Below, in pieces: positions 28,956-40,053 of a stretch of 41,095 nt of DNA. The DNA lies in the NCBI GenBank assembly GCA_021803945.1, contig JAJZKW010000011.1, positions 1 through 41,095 on the forward strand. Reading direction: 5' to 3'. The position numbers and the translations under genes are program-made. Position 1 is the stretch's first letter. Each line of letters begins with the position of its first letter. Source of the DNA: Microcaldota archaeon. GTDB taxonomy: Archaea > Micrarchaeota > Micrarchaeia > Micrarchaeales > CABMGC01. The notes beneath the pieces were generated by a model. It did not search any database and was not told the origin of the DNA. It worked only from the letters and a program-made list of their open reading frames with translations.

Positions 28956-30404
28956 TTAGTATGACCTTGCGAAGTTTGCGGAAAACTCGGATTCCTTTCC
29001 GCAATAGATGCACTTGGCGCTGCGCTTCTCCTGGTCAAAAGGCATATTTGTTATCTTTGTTCCGTTCTCTTCCTTTATCCTGCGTTCACATTCGGAGTTT
29101 CCGCACCACGGGGCGGTTATCATCCCCCCTTTTTCATTTATGGCTTTCTTGAATTCGTCGTATGTATTGACAACGGTAATATGCGAGTTCATGAAGTCAA
29201 GCGCCTTGTTATACAGGTTCTGGTGTATCTGCTCCATTAGCGAGCTTACTTCTGATACGACTCTTTCGATGCTTGCCTGCGATTTCTCTCCGGTGTCCCT
29301 CCTTGCGATCGTCACGGAATTTGCCGCAATGTCCCTCTCGCCTATCTCTATCCTTATAGGGATCCCCTTCATCTCCCATTCATTGAACTTGAAACCTGGC
29401 GAATGGCCCTGCCTTCCGTCCAGTTTGACCCTGAAGGTGCCCTTCAAGCTATCAAAAACGTTCTTTGAATAGGCATCGACCTTCTCCTGGTTATCCTTTT
29501 TGTATATGGGGATTATCACTACCTGTATATACGCAACCTTTGGCGGTATGACTAATCCTTTGTCGTCTCCGTGAGTCGCGACCATGACTCCTATCTCCCT
29601 GGTTGTTATCGCGAACGTATTCTGGTAGACGTGCCTTACCTTGCCTTCAGTATCGAGGAATTTTATATCGAACGCCTTTGCAAAATTCTGCCCGTCATTG
29701 TGGAAGTCCGGACCTTGGATAGCCCAGCCGTCAGGCATGATGTGTTCTATGCTGTAGCTTGCAACTGCTCCAGCAAACTTCTCATTGTCGCTCTTCCGCC
29801 CAGGTATCCCAGGAAGCGCAAGGTAGTCCTTCAGGAAGCTTTTGTATATTCCGAGTATCTGGTCCCTTTCGGCAATGGCTTCCTCCTCTGTTGCAAATGC
29901 CGTATGCCCCTCGTTCCATAGGAACTCCCTTGACCGGATAAATGGCGTTGGGTGCTTGAACTCCCATCTCAGCACGTTGTTCCACTGATTGTACCTCAGT
30001 GGCAGGTCCCTCCACGACCTTATCCACTTTGAATAACTCTTGTACATTATGGTTTCCGATGTGGGTCTTATTGCGAGCCTTTCCTCGAGCTTTGTATTGC
30101 CCGTTTCGGTGACCCATGCGACTTCAGGGGTAAATCCCTCGAAGTGCTCTTCTTCCTTCTTGAGGAGCTTTTCCGGTATGAGAAGCGGGAAGTACGTGTC
30201 TTCTATGCCTATCTTCTTGAATTCTGCATCTATTATGGCCATTGTCCTCTGCCATATGAAGTAGGACTGGGGGAGGAAGACTATAGAGCCGGATACATCG
30301 CTGTAATCAACGAATCCGGTCCTTATAATGACCTGTGTGTACCATTCTGAGAAATTTTCCGCCTTCTTCGCATCTATCTGCTCCACTTTGTCTTCTTCTG
30401 CCAG
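28956..30404 (-). CDS. proS: Prolyl-tRNA synthetase, archaeal/eukaryotic type
   Basis: A class II enzyme of about 482 residues without the bacterial editing insert. Motif 1 lies around YFIWQRTMAIIDAEF; then TYFPLLIPE; motif 2 LRYNQWNNVLRWEFKHPTPF; GTxx-type WNEGHTAF; motif 3 GDDKGLVIPPKVA; the C-terminal anticodon domain and a zinc-type tail with C-x-x-C residues and the typical C-terminal Tyr. The GTG at 30386 has no ribosome-binding site. A CTG at 30404 lies five bases after AGGTG (30414-30410) and adds LAEEDK to the N-terminus; it is the likelier start. Third gene of a PRODH-HAD-ProS operon. Confidence 0.96.
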   Translation of the reverse strand: MAEEDKVEQIDAKKAENFSEWYTQVIIRTGFVDYSDVSGSIVFLPQSYFIWQRTMAIIDAEFKKIGIEDTYFPLLIPEKLLKKEEEHFEGFTPEVAWVTETGNTKLEERLAIRPTSETIMYKSYSKWIRSWRDLPLRYNQWNNVLRWEFKHPTPFIRSREFLWNEGHTAFATEEEAIAERDQILGIYKSFLKDYLALPGIPGRKSDNEKFAGAVASYSIEHIMPDGWAIQGPDFHNDGQNFAKAFDIKFLDTEGKVRHVYQNTFAITTREIGVMVATHGDDKGLVIPPKVAYIQVVIIPIYKKDNQEKVDAYSKNVFDSLKGTFRVKLDGRQGHSPGFKFNEWEMKGIPIRIEIGERDIAANSVTIARRDTGEKSQASIERVVSEVSSLMEQIHQNLYNKALDFMNSHITVVNTYDEFKKAINEKGGMITAPWCGNSECERRIKEENGTKITNMPFDQEKRSAKCIYCGKESEFSANFARSY

Positions 30405-30406
30405 TT

Positions 30407-31018
30407 TTACACCTTATTGAATTTTATCCCGAGTCTTGCCAGGTCCGATTCAAGCTTCTTTATGCCTGTAAATATTATTGAATTTATGCCTACGGCTCTT
30501 GCTCCTGAAACGTTTTTGGCTATGTTGTCTATGAATATCACTTCTGAGGGCTTAAGCTTGAGTTTCGAAAGTACTTTCTTGTAGATTGGGGAATATGGCT
30601 TTACGCATCCTAGCTTGAATGACACAAATTTGTAATCAAAAAGGTCTGCAAATCCCCTTATGACGTGGTTTCTCACGTGCTCGTATCTCCACCTGTCAGC
30701 ATTTGAGAGATACGCTACGGTATAATTCCTCTTTAGTTCAGTTACAAGTTCTACCATGGCATTGTCTGGTTTTGCCGTCTTCTTGAAGAACTGCAGCCAC
30801 CGTACTTCACTTGGCTTTATCCCTAGAATCCCAGCTACTCTTTTCTCGAATTCTTTCAATGTTATCTTACCGCTTTCAAATGGCTCTGCCTCTTCTTTTA
30901 CTACGCGCTCTGCATACGCAGGCGAAGTTCCGCTTATCTTCCCCAGCCTTTTGTAGTTTTCATCATCTGGTACTTTGATTATTACGCCTCCAAGGTCGAA
31001 AAGGACCAATTTTATCAT
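30407..31018 (-). CDS. HAD superfamily hydrolase
   Basis: A 203-residue haloacid-dehalogenase-like phosphatase. Motif I is FDLGGVIIK (the second Asp of DxD replaced by Gly, as in the YihX/epoxide-hydrolase-like branch), motif II YLSNADRWR, motif III Lys in GCVKPYSPIYKKVL, motif IV VIFIDNIAKNVSGARAVG. A helical cap lies between motifs I and II. Substrate unknown. The ATG at 31018 overlaps the end of the proline dehydrogenase gene by one codon region (its stop is at 31021-31023), and a GGTG lies seven bases before the ATG. The stop precedes the ProS start by two bases. Confidence 0.88.
   Translation of the reverse strand: MIKLVLFDLGGVIIKVPDDENYKRLGKISGTSPAYAERVVKEEAEPFESGKITLKEFEKRVAGILGIKPSEVRWLQFFKKTAKPDNAMVELVTELKRNYTVAYLSNADRWRYEHVRNHVIRGFADLFDYKFVSFKLGCVKPYSPIYKKVLSKLKLKPSEVIFIDNIAKNVSGARAVGINSIIFTGIKKLESDLARLGIKFNKV
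30410..30414 (-). promoter_or_regulatory. Shine-Dalgarno AGGTG deciding the proS start
   Basis: AGGTG on the minus strand, five bases before CTG at 30404. The same AGGTG-N5-start layout occurs before the ATT starts of rnhB and the sulfocyanin-like gene. Confidence 0.5.
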
Positions 31019-35718: not shown

Positions 35719-36141
35719 TTATATACCTTTTTCATGATTGTCAAGAAGGAGATTCAGCTCTGCATCCACTTCTGTTATGTGGGGCGTCTCCCTCGGCACG
35801 CTGGTTATCGAATACGAATTGAACTTTTTGAGAAGGGACAGTGCCTCTTCGTTCAGCTTCTTGAGCTCCCTGCTCTTCACCTTGTAGCTTCCTTTGAGCT
35901 GGCTGACCACCAGCTGGCTGTCTGAATATATGCTTAGATCGATTCCGTATCCGAATTCGTGCGCTGCAGCCTGCAGGGCCATTATTATTGCCAGGTATTC
36001 CGCCTCATTGTTGGTCTTTATTCCATTATAGGCTGAGCTCCTTGCCAGGAGGTTCCCGCCTTCGTCAAATATCCTGTATCCTGATGCGCTGTTGCCGGGA
36101 TTGTTCCTTGAAGCCCCATCGGTGTATATACTGAAGGTCAT
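35719..36141 (-). CDS. rnhA: Ribonuclease HI
   Basis: A 140-residue type 1 RNase H that cuts the RNA strand of RNA-DNA hybrids. The fold starts TFSIYTDGASRNNPG (first Asp8), then TNNEAEYLAII (Glu46), IYSDSQLVVSQLKG (Asp74), and a C-terminal Asp in ITEVDAELN; the usual PREENxxAD is partly changed to PRETPHITEVD. The ATG at 36141 is used rather than an upstream TTG; a TATA-like ATATTTAATC lies about 35 bases upstream. The window also encodes RNase HII, so both types are present. Confidence 0.92.
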   Translation of the reverse strand: MTFSIYTDGASRNNPGNSASGYRIFDEGGNLLARSSAYNGIKTNNEAEYLAIIMALQAAAHEFGYGIDLSIYSDSQLVVSQLKGSYKVKSRELKKLNEEALSLLKKFNSYSITSVPRETPHITEVDAELNLLLDNHEKGI

Positions 36142-36224
36142 ATATGGCACCAACCCATGGTATACGGCAATGATTAAATATATTACTCATTCCTTATTTA
36201 TAGGCGACGGCATTAGGTGCGTGT

Positions 36225-37016: not shown

Positions 37017-37268
37017 ATGGTAAAATATGTTATAGCGGAGCAGCTCGTAGGGAAGGAAGTCGTGACCAGCGACGGATTCGACCTAGGAAAGTTCGTCGAT
37101 GCAGAAGTCCTTGAATCGACAGGGAAGCTTAATGCATTGATAATAGAGCCTAATGTCGACAGCGAATTCGTTAACAAGCTCGGAATCAAGGGAGGGAAAC
37201 TGCAGGTACCTTACACTAGCGTAATGTCAGTGAATGACTTCATAGTGGTAGACAAGAAAGGATTGTAA
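37017..37268 (+). CDS. PRC-barrel domain protein
   Basis: An 83-residue protein consisting of one PRC barrel: AEQLVGKEVVTSDGFDLGKF, DAEVLESTGKLNALIIEP, then LQVPYTSVMSVNDFIVVDKK. Stand-alone archaeal PRC-barrel proteins are linked to RNA processing and cell division (CdpB type). The ATG at 37017 is used; a GTG at 37011 is less likely. It is followed after 11 bases by rnhB, so the two form an operon. Confidence 0.88.
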   Translation: MVKYVIAEQLVGKEVVTSDGFDLGKFVDAEVLESTGKLNALIIEPNVDSEFVNKLGIKGGKLQVPYTSVMSVNDFIVVDKKGL

Positions 37269-37274
37269 AAGGTG
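37269..37274 (+). promoter_or_regulatory. Shine-Dalgarno AAGGTG deciding the rnhB start
   Basis: AAGGTG directly after the PRC-barrel stop, five bases before the ATT at 37280. It is the only ribosome-binding site here and places translation at a codon matching the family N-terminus. Confidence 0.65.
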
Positions 37275-37279
37275 TTCTC

Positions 37280-37990
37280 ATTATCATAGCAGGCGGCGAT
37301 GAGGCAGGCCGCGGAGCGGTGATAGGCCCGCTCGTCGTAAGCTTAATATCTATAAGCAAGGGGAAGGAAGGAAGGCTCTCAAAAATAGGCGTCAGGGATT
37401 CGAAGATGCTAAGCAGGAAGAAGAGGGAGTTCCTCTTCGATGAAATCACGTCCTTGGCGGAGCAGGTAAAGGTATACAAGATATCCAATATTGAGATTGA
37501 CAGGGCCATGACCGCCGGAGTGTCCCTGAACGGGCTTGAGGCACTTAACTTCGCCAGGATGATAGACTCGCTCGAAGGGCATCCTAAGAAGATCTTCCTT
37601 GACTCGCCTGACGTAGTCCAGAATAAATTTGGCATACGGGTGTGCCTCTTCTCGAAAAGGACTATGACTGTGGAGGGCTCGCCTGGAGTCAGCAATCCAG
37701 GTATGAATGACAGCGAGATTATCACACTTGTATCTGAGCATAAGGCGGATTCCAGATATCCTGTTGTCTCTGGGGCGAGCATAATAGCGAAGGTCACGCG
37801 GGACTATGAAATAGATAGGATATCGGACGAGATAGGGATAGACGTAGGCTCTGGATACCCTTCAGATTCGAAGACAGTAAACGCCATAAAGAACAACCTC
37901 AAGCACGAGAAGCTGGGAAAATACATACGGAACAGGTGGAAGACCATGGAGATTATTCGGCAGAGCCGTATCGAAGAGTTCTTTTCCTGA
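37280..37990 (+). CDS. rnhB: Ribonuclease HII, probable ATT start
   Basis: A 236-residue RNase HII that removes RNA primers and single ribonucleotides from DNA. With ATT at 37280 as Met the protein begins MIIAGGDEAGRGAVIGPLVV, matching the family start (M-I-I-x-G-x-DEAGRG). Catalytic residues: Asp7, Glu8, Asp108 (IFLDSP) and Asp157 (EHKAD). The first in-frame GTG, at 37319, would delete the DEAGRG motif, so it cannot be the start. About 20 extra residues (around 125-148) separate the third and fourth acids relative to typical archaeal enzymes (from memory). Co-transcribed with the PRC-barrel gene. Confidence 0.92.
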   Translation: MIIAGGDEAGRGAVIGPLVVSLISISKGKEGRLSKIGVRDSKMLSRKKREFLFDEITSLAEQVKVYKISNIEIDRAMTAGVSLNGLEALNFARMIDSLEGHPKKIFLDSPDVVQNKFGIRVCLFSKRTMTVEGSPGVSNPGMNDSEIITLVSEHKADSRYPVVSGASIIAKVTRDYEIDRISDEIGIDVGSGYPSDSKTVNAIKNNLKHEKLGKYIRNRWKTMEIIRQSRIEEFFS

Positions 37991-39168: not shown

Positions 39169-39882
39169 CTATTGCACAAGAATGTATCCGTACATGCCCA
39201 TCTGTGCGTGGCCTGGATACATGCAGAGATACCAGAACGTGCCGGCAGAATTGAAAGAGGCGTTATATGAATATTCGTAGGCCTGCTCCTGCTGGTAATC
39301 GGCGTGCTGCACGAAAGGCATCATTGACATCAAGCCCCCCATGGCTGACATTGGCATATATTGGTATGGCGGGCCGGTTGATGTAATTATCACGTCATGG
39401 TACGCGCTAGAATCAAGGTTTACGAAGGTAATATGCACAGTCGAGCCTTTCTGTAAGACTAAAGTAGGGTCTATCAGCCCATCTATTACGAATGCATCGT
39501 TGGCGGCATATGCTGGCGGCGTGCTACCAGTAAGGTTCGCCGCCCTATCAACTCCCATTGCCAAAACAACTATGCTTACGTTTTTTGATTCAAAGACTAT
39601 GCTGTCGTTCTTGGAAGATACAACTGCGTAAGACGGAGTAACCTTCGCGTCTTGCACCGCCGTCTGGATCGCAAGAGGCGTGCCCACCTGGCCAGTCATT
39701 CCTACCATAATCGAGGACATTCCCGATGCTCCGCTCCCGCCATTCATCATGCCGAATGGTATAGAATATCCGTTATAAATTCCGTACGTTCGAATCGCTA
39801 TATACACCAGCGAGATAGCAATGATAACCAGTGTGGTTGCTATAACGTACGTAGCCGCTGTATGCTGTCGCTTTCCCCTAAT
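39169..39882 (-). CDS. Sulfocyanin/rusticyanin-like cupredoxin, probable ATT start
   Basis: A 237-residue blue copper protein. With ATT at 39882 as Met it begins MRGKRQHTAATYVIATTLV, a basic N-terminus and one membrane anchor (about 10-30), then the beta-sandwich. Copper ligands: His in SSAYHDVIITS, then Cys, His and Met in LCMYPGHAQMGM (C-x4-H-x4-M), the sulfocyanin/rusticyanin pattern. A GTG at 39807 would remove the anchor's first part. AGGTG five bases before the ATT supports it. Such proteins carry electrons in acidophilic respiration. The stop of a truncated gene lies immediately before the ATT. Confidence 0.85.
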   Translation of the reverse strand: MRGKRQHTAATYVIATTLVIIAISLVYIAIRTYGIYNGYSIPFGMMNGGSGASGMSSIMVGMTGQVGTPLAIQTAVQDAKVTPSYAVVSSKNDSIVFESKNVSIVVLAMGVDRAANLTGSTPPAYAANDAFVIDGLIDPTLVLQKGSTVHITFVNLDSSAYHDVIITSTGPPYQYMPMSAMGGLMSMMPFVQHADYQQEQAYEYSYNASFNSAGTFWYLCMYPGHAQMGMYGYILVQ

Positions 39883-40053
39883 TCAAACACCTGTATAGTA
39901 TATTTTAAGTTCGTCAAATTGTTCAACTTCATTGTCAACCAAGATTGCTATATCTATATCCCTATAGCCTTTTTCCTTCCTTGCATAGCTCCCGAATAAG
40001 AGAATAGCAATAACGTGCCTGTCTTTCCCTGCGAGTTCTACTAATTTTTGCAT
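39883..40053 (-). CDS. Truncated MNT-type nucleotidyltransferase
   Basis: A 56-residue reading frame, MQKLVELAGKDRHVIAILLF then GSYARKEKGYRDIDIAILVD. GSYARKE and DIDIAILVD are the GS-x-A-R and D-x-D motifs of minimal nucleotidyltransferases (MNT), which act as antitoxins for HEPN toxins. It stops about 40 residues short of a complete MNT, and no HEPN partner is adjacent. It follows the small RHH gene and abuts the sulfocyanin start, so it may be a remnant or a minimal domain. Confidence 0.6.
   Translation of the reverse strand: MQKLVELAGKDRHVIAILLFGSYARKEKGYRDIDIAILVDNEVEQFDELKIYYTGV
39888..39892 (-). promoter_or_regulatory. Shine-Dalgarno AGGTG deciding the sulfocyanin start
   Basis: AGGTG on the minus strand followed by TTTGA and then ATT (39882-39880). 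The layout is identical in spacing to that before rnhB and the proposed proS start. Confidence 0.6.

Follow-up and report, generated by a model that had tools for sequence, protein, structure and literature searches.

The window, i.e. the whole stretch of 41,095 nt analysed here, is contig C20 of a Micrarchaeota genome (G000, hereafter the own genome), which was assembled to 902,125 nt in 26 contigs. On its plus strand, the gene for RNase HII (rnhB) is preceded directly by a PRC-barrel gene. The features of this region are as follows:

37017..37268, plus strand: PRC-barrel gene with ATG start and stop codon TAA at 37266-37268; adjoins rnhB in most relatives
37270..37274, plus strand: Shine-Dalgarno (SD) sequence AGGTG with GGTG core at 37271-37274, 5 nt 5' of ATT; complementary to the 16S rRNA 3' end GATCACCTC
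37280..37282, plus strand: ATT, proposed start codon of rnhB; ATT, ATC or ATA stands at this position in 64 of 80 genomes
37280..37990, plus strand: RNase HII (rnhB), 236 aa counted from ATT; Pfam RNase_HII, TIGR00729
37298..37315, plus strand: catalytic DEAGRG motif; absent from the product if the first canonical start is used
37319..37321, plus strand: GTG, earliest in-frame canonical start and the choice of gene callers; located within the enzyme

In the following, ATG, GTG and TTG are referred to as canonical starts, and ATT, ATC and ATA (AUU, AUC and AUA) collectively as AUH. About 1.1 kb from rnhB, a candidate RNase HI-like ORF with a TTG start is located on the minus strand (35719-36153).

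Profile searches identified the rnhB product as a complete RNase HII. It matched TIGR00729 with 184.4 bits (cut-off 123.3) over model positions 1-206 of 207 and PF01351 (RNase_HII) with 141.3 bits (cut-off 25.8), the full-length profile match thus being above the curated cut-off. The DEAGRG motif with its catalytic acidic residues is present at the N-terminus and aligned with the motifs of 3p83, 2dff and 1eke, but it is retained only if translation starts 5' of GTG 37319. Upstream of ATT 37280 the frame is open for just 14 extra codons, none of which is ATG, GTG or TTG. The sequence-only reading, which had stated that RNase HII lacks a canonical start in front of DEAGRG and that gene callers would therefore truncate it, was correct on both points, the first canonical start, GTG 37319, lying past the motif. 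It had also placed ATT 37280 five bases behind an SD sequence, and indeed AGGTG (37270-37274) is followed by TTCTC and then by ATT (37280-37282). Its claim that ATT is the only candidate in frame has to be modified. The codons after ATT 37280 are ATC ATA GCA GGC GGC GAT GAG GCA GGC CGC GGA, and ATC 37283 and ATA 37286 are further in-frame AUH codons 5' of DEAGRG, but ATT alone combines an SD spacing of 5 with the register of the family. In phmmer alignments, residue 2 of the protein read from ATT coincides with residue 2 of 1eke from M. jannaschii, in line with the proposed fit to family N-termini, and its residue 3 is matched by the same residue number in the 1io2 group. Therefore, ATT occupies the Met1 position of other RNase HII proteins, and a start at ATT 37280 with the N-terminus MIIAGGDEAGRG is supported as the best reading.

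Starts of rnhB were compared in 80 Micrarchaeota genomes; 49 belong to the same family and 31 to another family within the order. At the position of ATT 37280, 64 of them have ATT, ATC or ATA, 11 have ATG, and three have GTT. ATG is found in G013, G112, G233, G247 and seven f2 genomes, so that the AUH register coincides with that of AUG starts. Alignment with relatives had been named as a check by the sequence-only reading and a sequencing error as a possible source of the ATT; as the same class of codon recurs in independent MAGs, such an error is excluded. In 42 of the 80 genomes, the open frame from the preceding stop codon to DEAGRG contains not a single ATG, GTG or TTG. Moreover, a stop codon is located immediately 5' of the rnhB start codon ATA in L022, L047, L236, L246 and L247, and of ATC in L084. 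Non-canonical initiation is thus forced in these genomes. Among 27 genomes of the family, information content rises sharply at the ATH codon, where the triplet pattern of fixed first and second and free third bases begins, and the only conserved block further 5' is GGTG at -9 to -6. In-frame GTG or TTG codons further upstream of the AUH codon, often within the SD sequence, were detected in about half of the genomes. Elsewhere in the class, an ATG is mostly available close to the start of rnhB, but L204 and L205, which belong to one further family, again show an SD sequence and ATA without a canonical start. In L014, L122 and L242, GTT at the rnhB start column is accompanied by an upstream GGTG, and the same holds for ACG at the start column of an AbrB-like gene in L277 (see below), which suggests a still wider start tolerance.

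Genes of the own genome were compared, as reciprocal best ORFs from stop to stop, with 723 kb of one contig of a relative, G132. After removal of overlaps, 545 ORF pairs were searched for homology reaching 5' of any canonical start. Apart from rnhB, at least five genes with AUH starts were detected, a number that is a lower bound because it comes from this single comparison. These genes and the SD sequence of the one located in the window are:

contig C21: AbrB-like protein, ATA start
contig C21: RpiB-like protein, ATC start
contig C10: conserved protein of 124 aa, ATT start
contig C4: SIMPL/DUF541 protein, ATA start
window, 39169..39882, minus strand: cupredoxin-like protein (Pfam Cu-oxidase_3/Copper-bind), ATT start at 39882-39880
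window, 39888..39891, minus strand: GGTG SD sequence of the cupredoxin-like gene, spacing 5

The ATT at 39882 is located immediately 3' of the in-frame TGA that ends a nucleotidyltransferase-like ORF of 56 aa, and the G132 ortholog has ATG at this codon. If only canonical starts are considered, the gene is called from GTG 39807 on the minus strand. GGTG is found at exactly 5 nt in all six AUH starts of the own genome, rnhB included; these six were selected partly with the SD sequence in view, but all of them also appeared in a scan that disregarded it. The earlier notion of the rnhB ATT as a single rare case was not borne out by the 64 genomes with AUH at this position and the additional AUH genes of the own genome. 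Two candidates for CTG starts were also noted. A gene for a beta-CASP metallo-beta-lactamase nuclease (L110:5574-6881, minus strand; contig C13 of G000) possibly starts with CTG, with GGTG 5 nt upstream, and its ortholog in G132 has TTG at this position. In the window, a prolyl-tRNA synthetase-like ORF (28959-30411, minus strand) may likewise use CTG (GGTG at 5 nt), a GTG being located six codons on.

The 3' end of the 16S rRNA of the own genome was determined as AUCACCUC (also GAUCACCUC; ...GGATAGATCACCTCA). From the terminal ...GGATAGATCACCTCA it follows that GGUG is a true anti-SD match, and in front of ATT 37280 this complementary GGTG is placed at a productive spacing of 5 nt. Among 252 conserved canonical starts of the own genome, GGTG is present 4-7 nt upstream of 14.5% of the ATG, 25% of the GTG and 52% of the TTG codons; the weaker the start codon, the stronger is the SD sequence. 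The same relation extends to AUH. Within 4-7 nt of the rnhB start, GGTG was found in 58 of 64 AUH genes versus one of 11 ATG genes. In the families of the AbrB-like, RpiB-like and C10 proteins, the first codon is ATG or one of ATA, ATC and ATT depending on the genome, even within a genus. GGTG accompanies 13/13 AUH versus 3/13 canonical starts of the AbrB-like family, 11/13 versus 3/12 of the RpiB-like family, and 10/10 versus 1/13 of the small C10 protein, although the genomes behind all these association counts are not phylogenetically independent. On the rnhB tree, the independent switches countable for each gene number one to three, none of them in the opposite direction, which is too few for significance alone. 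Since AUH codons also specify Ile, variation at the third base is by itself no proof of a start, and the case rests on the abutting stops, the SD register, and the alternation of ATG and AUH.

Several other explanations for the missing canonical start were considered. RNase HII could be produced by frameshifting or readthrough from the PRC-barrel gene, as an extension of its protein, and would then not need a start codon. The PRC-barrel gene is located directly 5', its stop is only 11 nt before ATT, and the order of the two genes is kept in most relatives. Nevertheless, this arrangement is highly improbable and was rejected, because the two genes are only about 10 nt apart in some relatives and up to about 90 nt in others, the relative frame is variable, and stop codons abut the AUH codon of rnhB. 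The genes located 5' of the other AUH genes are unrelated or far away, and a GGTG kept at a constant distance would serve no purpose. An upstream canonical start, in particular the GTG within GGTG, with AUH as an internal Ile codon, would be available in L017, L024 and L040, among others, in which this GTG is in frame three codons 5' of AUH (spacing 6). The more common SD spacing in rnhB is 5, however, at which the GTG is out of frame, and it was therefore rejected as a general start. Considering in addition the 42 genomes without any canonical codon in the open frame and the absence of triplet periodicity 5' of the AUH codon, upstream canonical initiation is very unlikely.

Translation could also begin further downstream. 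A functional but truncated RNase HII starting at GTG 37319 or later would make use of the earliest canonical start, but would lose the first strand together with the catalytic DEAGRG motif, a motif on which coding constraint is strong throughout the relatives; this possibility can practically be dismissed. A start at AUC 37283 or AUA 37286 instead of AUU 37280 would leave the class of the finding unchanged and might be considered because three AUH codons follow each other in many species. It is very unlikely, since the SD spacings would be 8 and 11 nt, the register of the family N-termini would be left, and in G013, G112, G180 and G206, ATG is present at the first of the three consecutive codons that are AUH elsewhere. 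Termination-reinitiation is unsupported as a general requirement for AUH starts, a nearby upstream stop being present in only some AUH genes.

Components of the initiation machinery were also searched. A gene for aIF1 was found in 21 of 21 genomes, and loss of this factor as a cause of AUH starts was therefore rejected; the suggestion of the sequence-only reading that initiation factors might be peculiar does not hold as far as a loss of aIF1 is concerned. The gene for the initiator tRNA(CAU) is present and, as read from its sequence, canonical, with A1-U72 and three G-C pairs in the anticodon stem. ARAGORN predicted one tRNA with anticodon CAU, the initiator, in G000 and one in the G132 contig; elongator tRNA-Met was either missed by the program or is encoded outside the assembled part of G000 and the G132 contig. 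ATA is the main internal Ile codon of the own genome (63.5 per 1000), and a tRNA-Ile(UAU) gene with an intron provides the reader of AUA. With these properties, and with AUU and AUC starts also occurring, recoding of AUA as Met is unsupported. The enzyme TiaS (PF08489) was not found in any of 40 genomes of the order, 39 relatives plus the own genome; the search was positive in four control archaea. Any causal tie of the absence of TiaS or of tRNA-Ile(UAU) to AUH starts is speculation.

Taken together, AUU, AUC and AUA are very probably real start codons in this lineage of Micrarchaeota, at which Met-tRNAi would be used and for which a strong, exactly spaced SD sequence would compensate. In the proposed mechanism, GGUG would pair with CACC of the 16S rRNA 3' end, and the spacing of 5, sometimes 6, nt would bring AUH into the P site, where the strong SD interaction could retain it for a time sufficient for acceptance of Met-tRNAi. 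Of the three bases of the codon, the first two would pair with the ordinary initiator tRNA(CAU), the mismatch at the third position would be tolerated, and the protein should start with Met. A strong SD sequence with a weak codon and a weaker one with AUG may represent nearly equivalent states, and this near-equivalence would explain why genes switch between them in evolution. Retention of the weak-codon form of rnhB by most members of two families, and by nearly all of one family, hints at selection for capped, limited or tunable output, and AUH starts may thus serve a regulatory or dosage purpose. A more far-reaching version is a relaxed start rule across the archaeal order, in which AUN with GGUG at 5 nt acts as a start in perhaps 1-2% of the genes, exchanges with AUG, and possibly depends on altered initiation machinery or an altered tRNA set; here the arguments for and against appear to us evenly balanced. 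If this rule is true, start annotation would be systematically wrong across the genomes of the order. Gene callers restricted to ATG, GTG and TTG would truncate or miss proteins of Micrarchaeota, and in the present case the RNase HII so called would appear catalytically dead. Gene families in which AUG and AUH alternate and the SD sequence changes in step constitute a natural experiment on the trade-off between SD strength and start codon.

Natural AUH starts have so far been treated as rare curiosities, whereas most members of an archaeal order keep one in a DNA-repair enzyme. The genes infC, encoding IF3, and pcnB of E. coli have natural AUU starts, which are read by initiator tRNA, are combined with a good SD sequence, and are kept for expression control; infC is regulated by its own product, a fidelity factor. 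The AUU start of rnhB with its good SD sequence resembles these cases, and reading by initiator tRNA is probably shared. Autoregulation of the infC type does not apply, since rnhB encodes RNase HII and no initiation factor, and in contrast to the isolated bacterial genes, AUA, AUC and AUU are all used in several unrelated genes of an archaeal phylum. In mitochondria, AUA, AUU and AUC starts are common, but code and tRNA set are different and SD sequences are mostly lacking. Unlike there, AUA is here the main internal Ile codon, read by tRNA-Ile(UAU). In the Sulfolobus and Pyrococcus systems, aIF1 destabilises non-AUG complexes (PMC7531240, PMC6237735). The factor is likewise present here and would need to tolerate AUH. 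AUG, GUG and UUG are the starts named in the sections consulted of a review on archaeal initiation (PMC7531240), AUH not being mentioned there, and natural AUH starts are not described in PMC6237735. No report on archaeal AUH starts was found in the open-access journal literature; recurrent, SD-coupled use of AUH across an archaeal order appears unreported, while its chemistry is known from bacterial infC. In prokaryotes, suboptimal GUG and UUG starts are accompanied by stronger SD sequences (Belinky et al. 2017, PMC5622118), and the gradient from ATG over GTG to TTG in the own genome agrees with this. The same study listed one switch from AUG to AUU and one from GUG to AUU in about 69,000 ancestral starts of 36 genome groups, whereas here, in a single archaeal family, AUG and AUH replace each other in several gene families.
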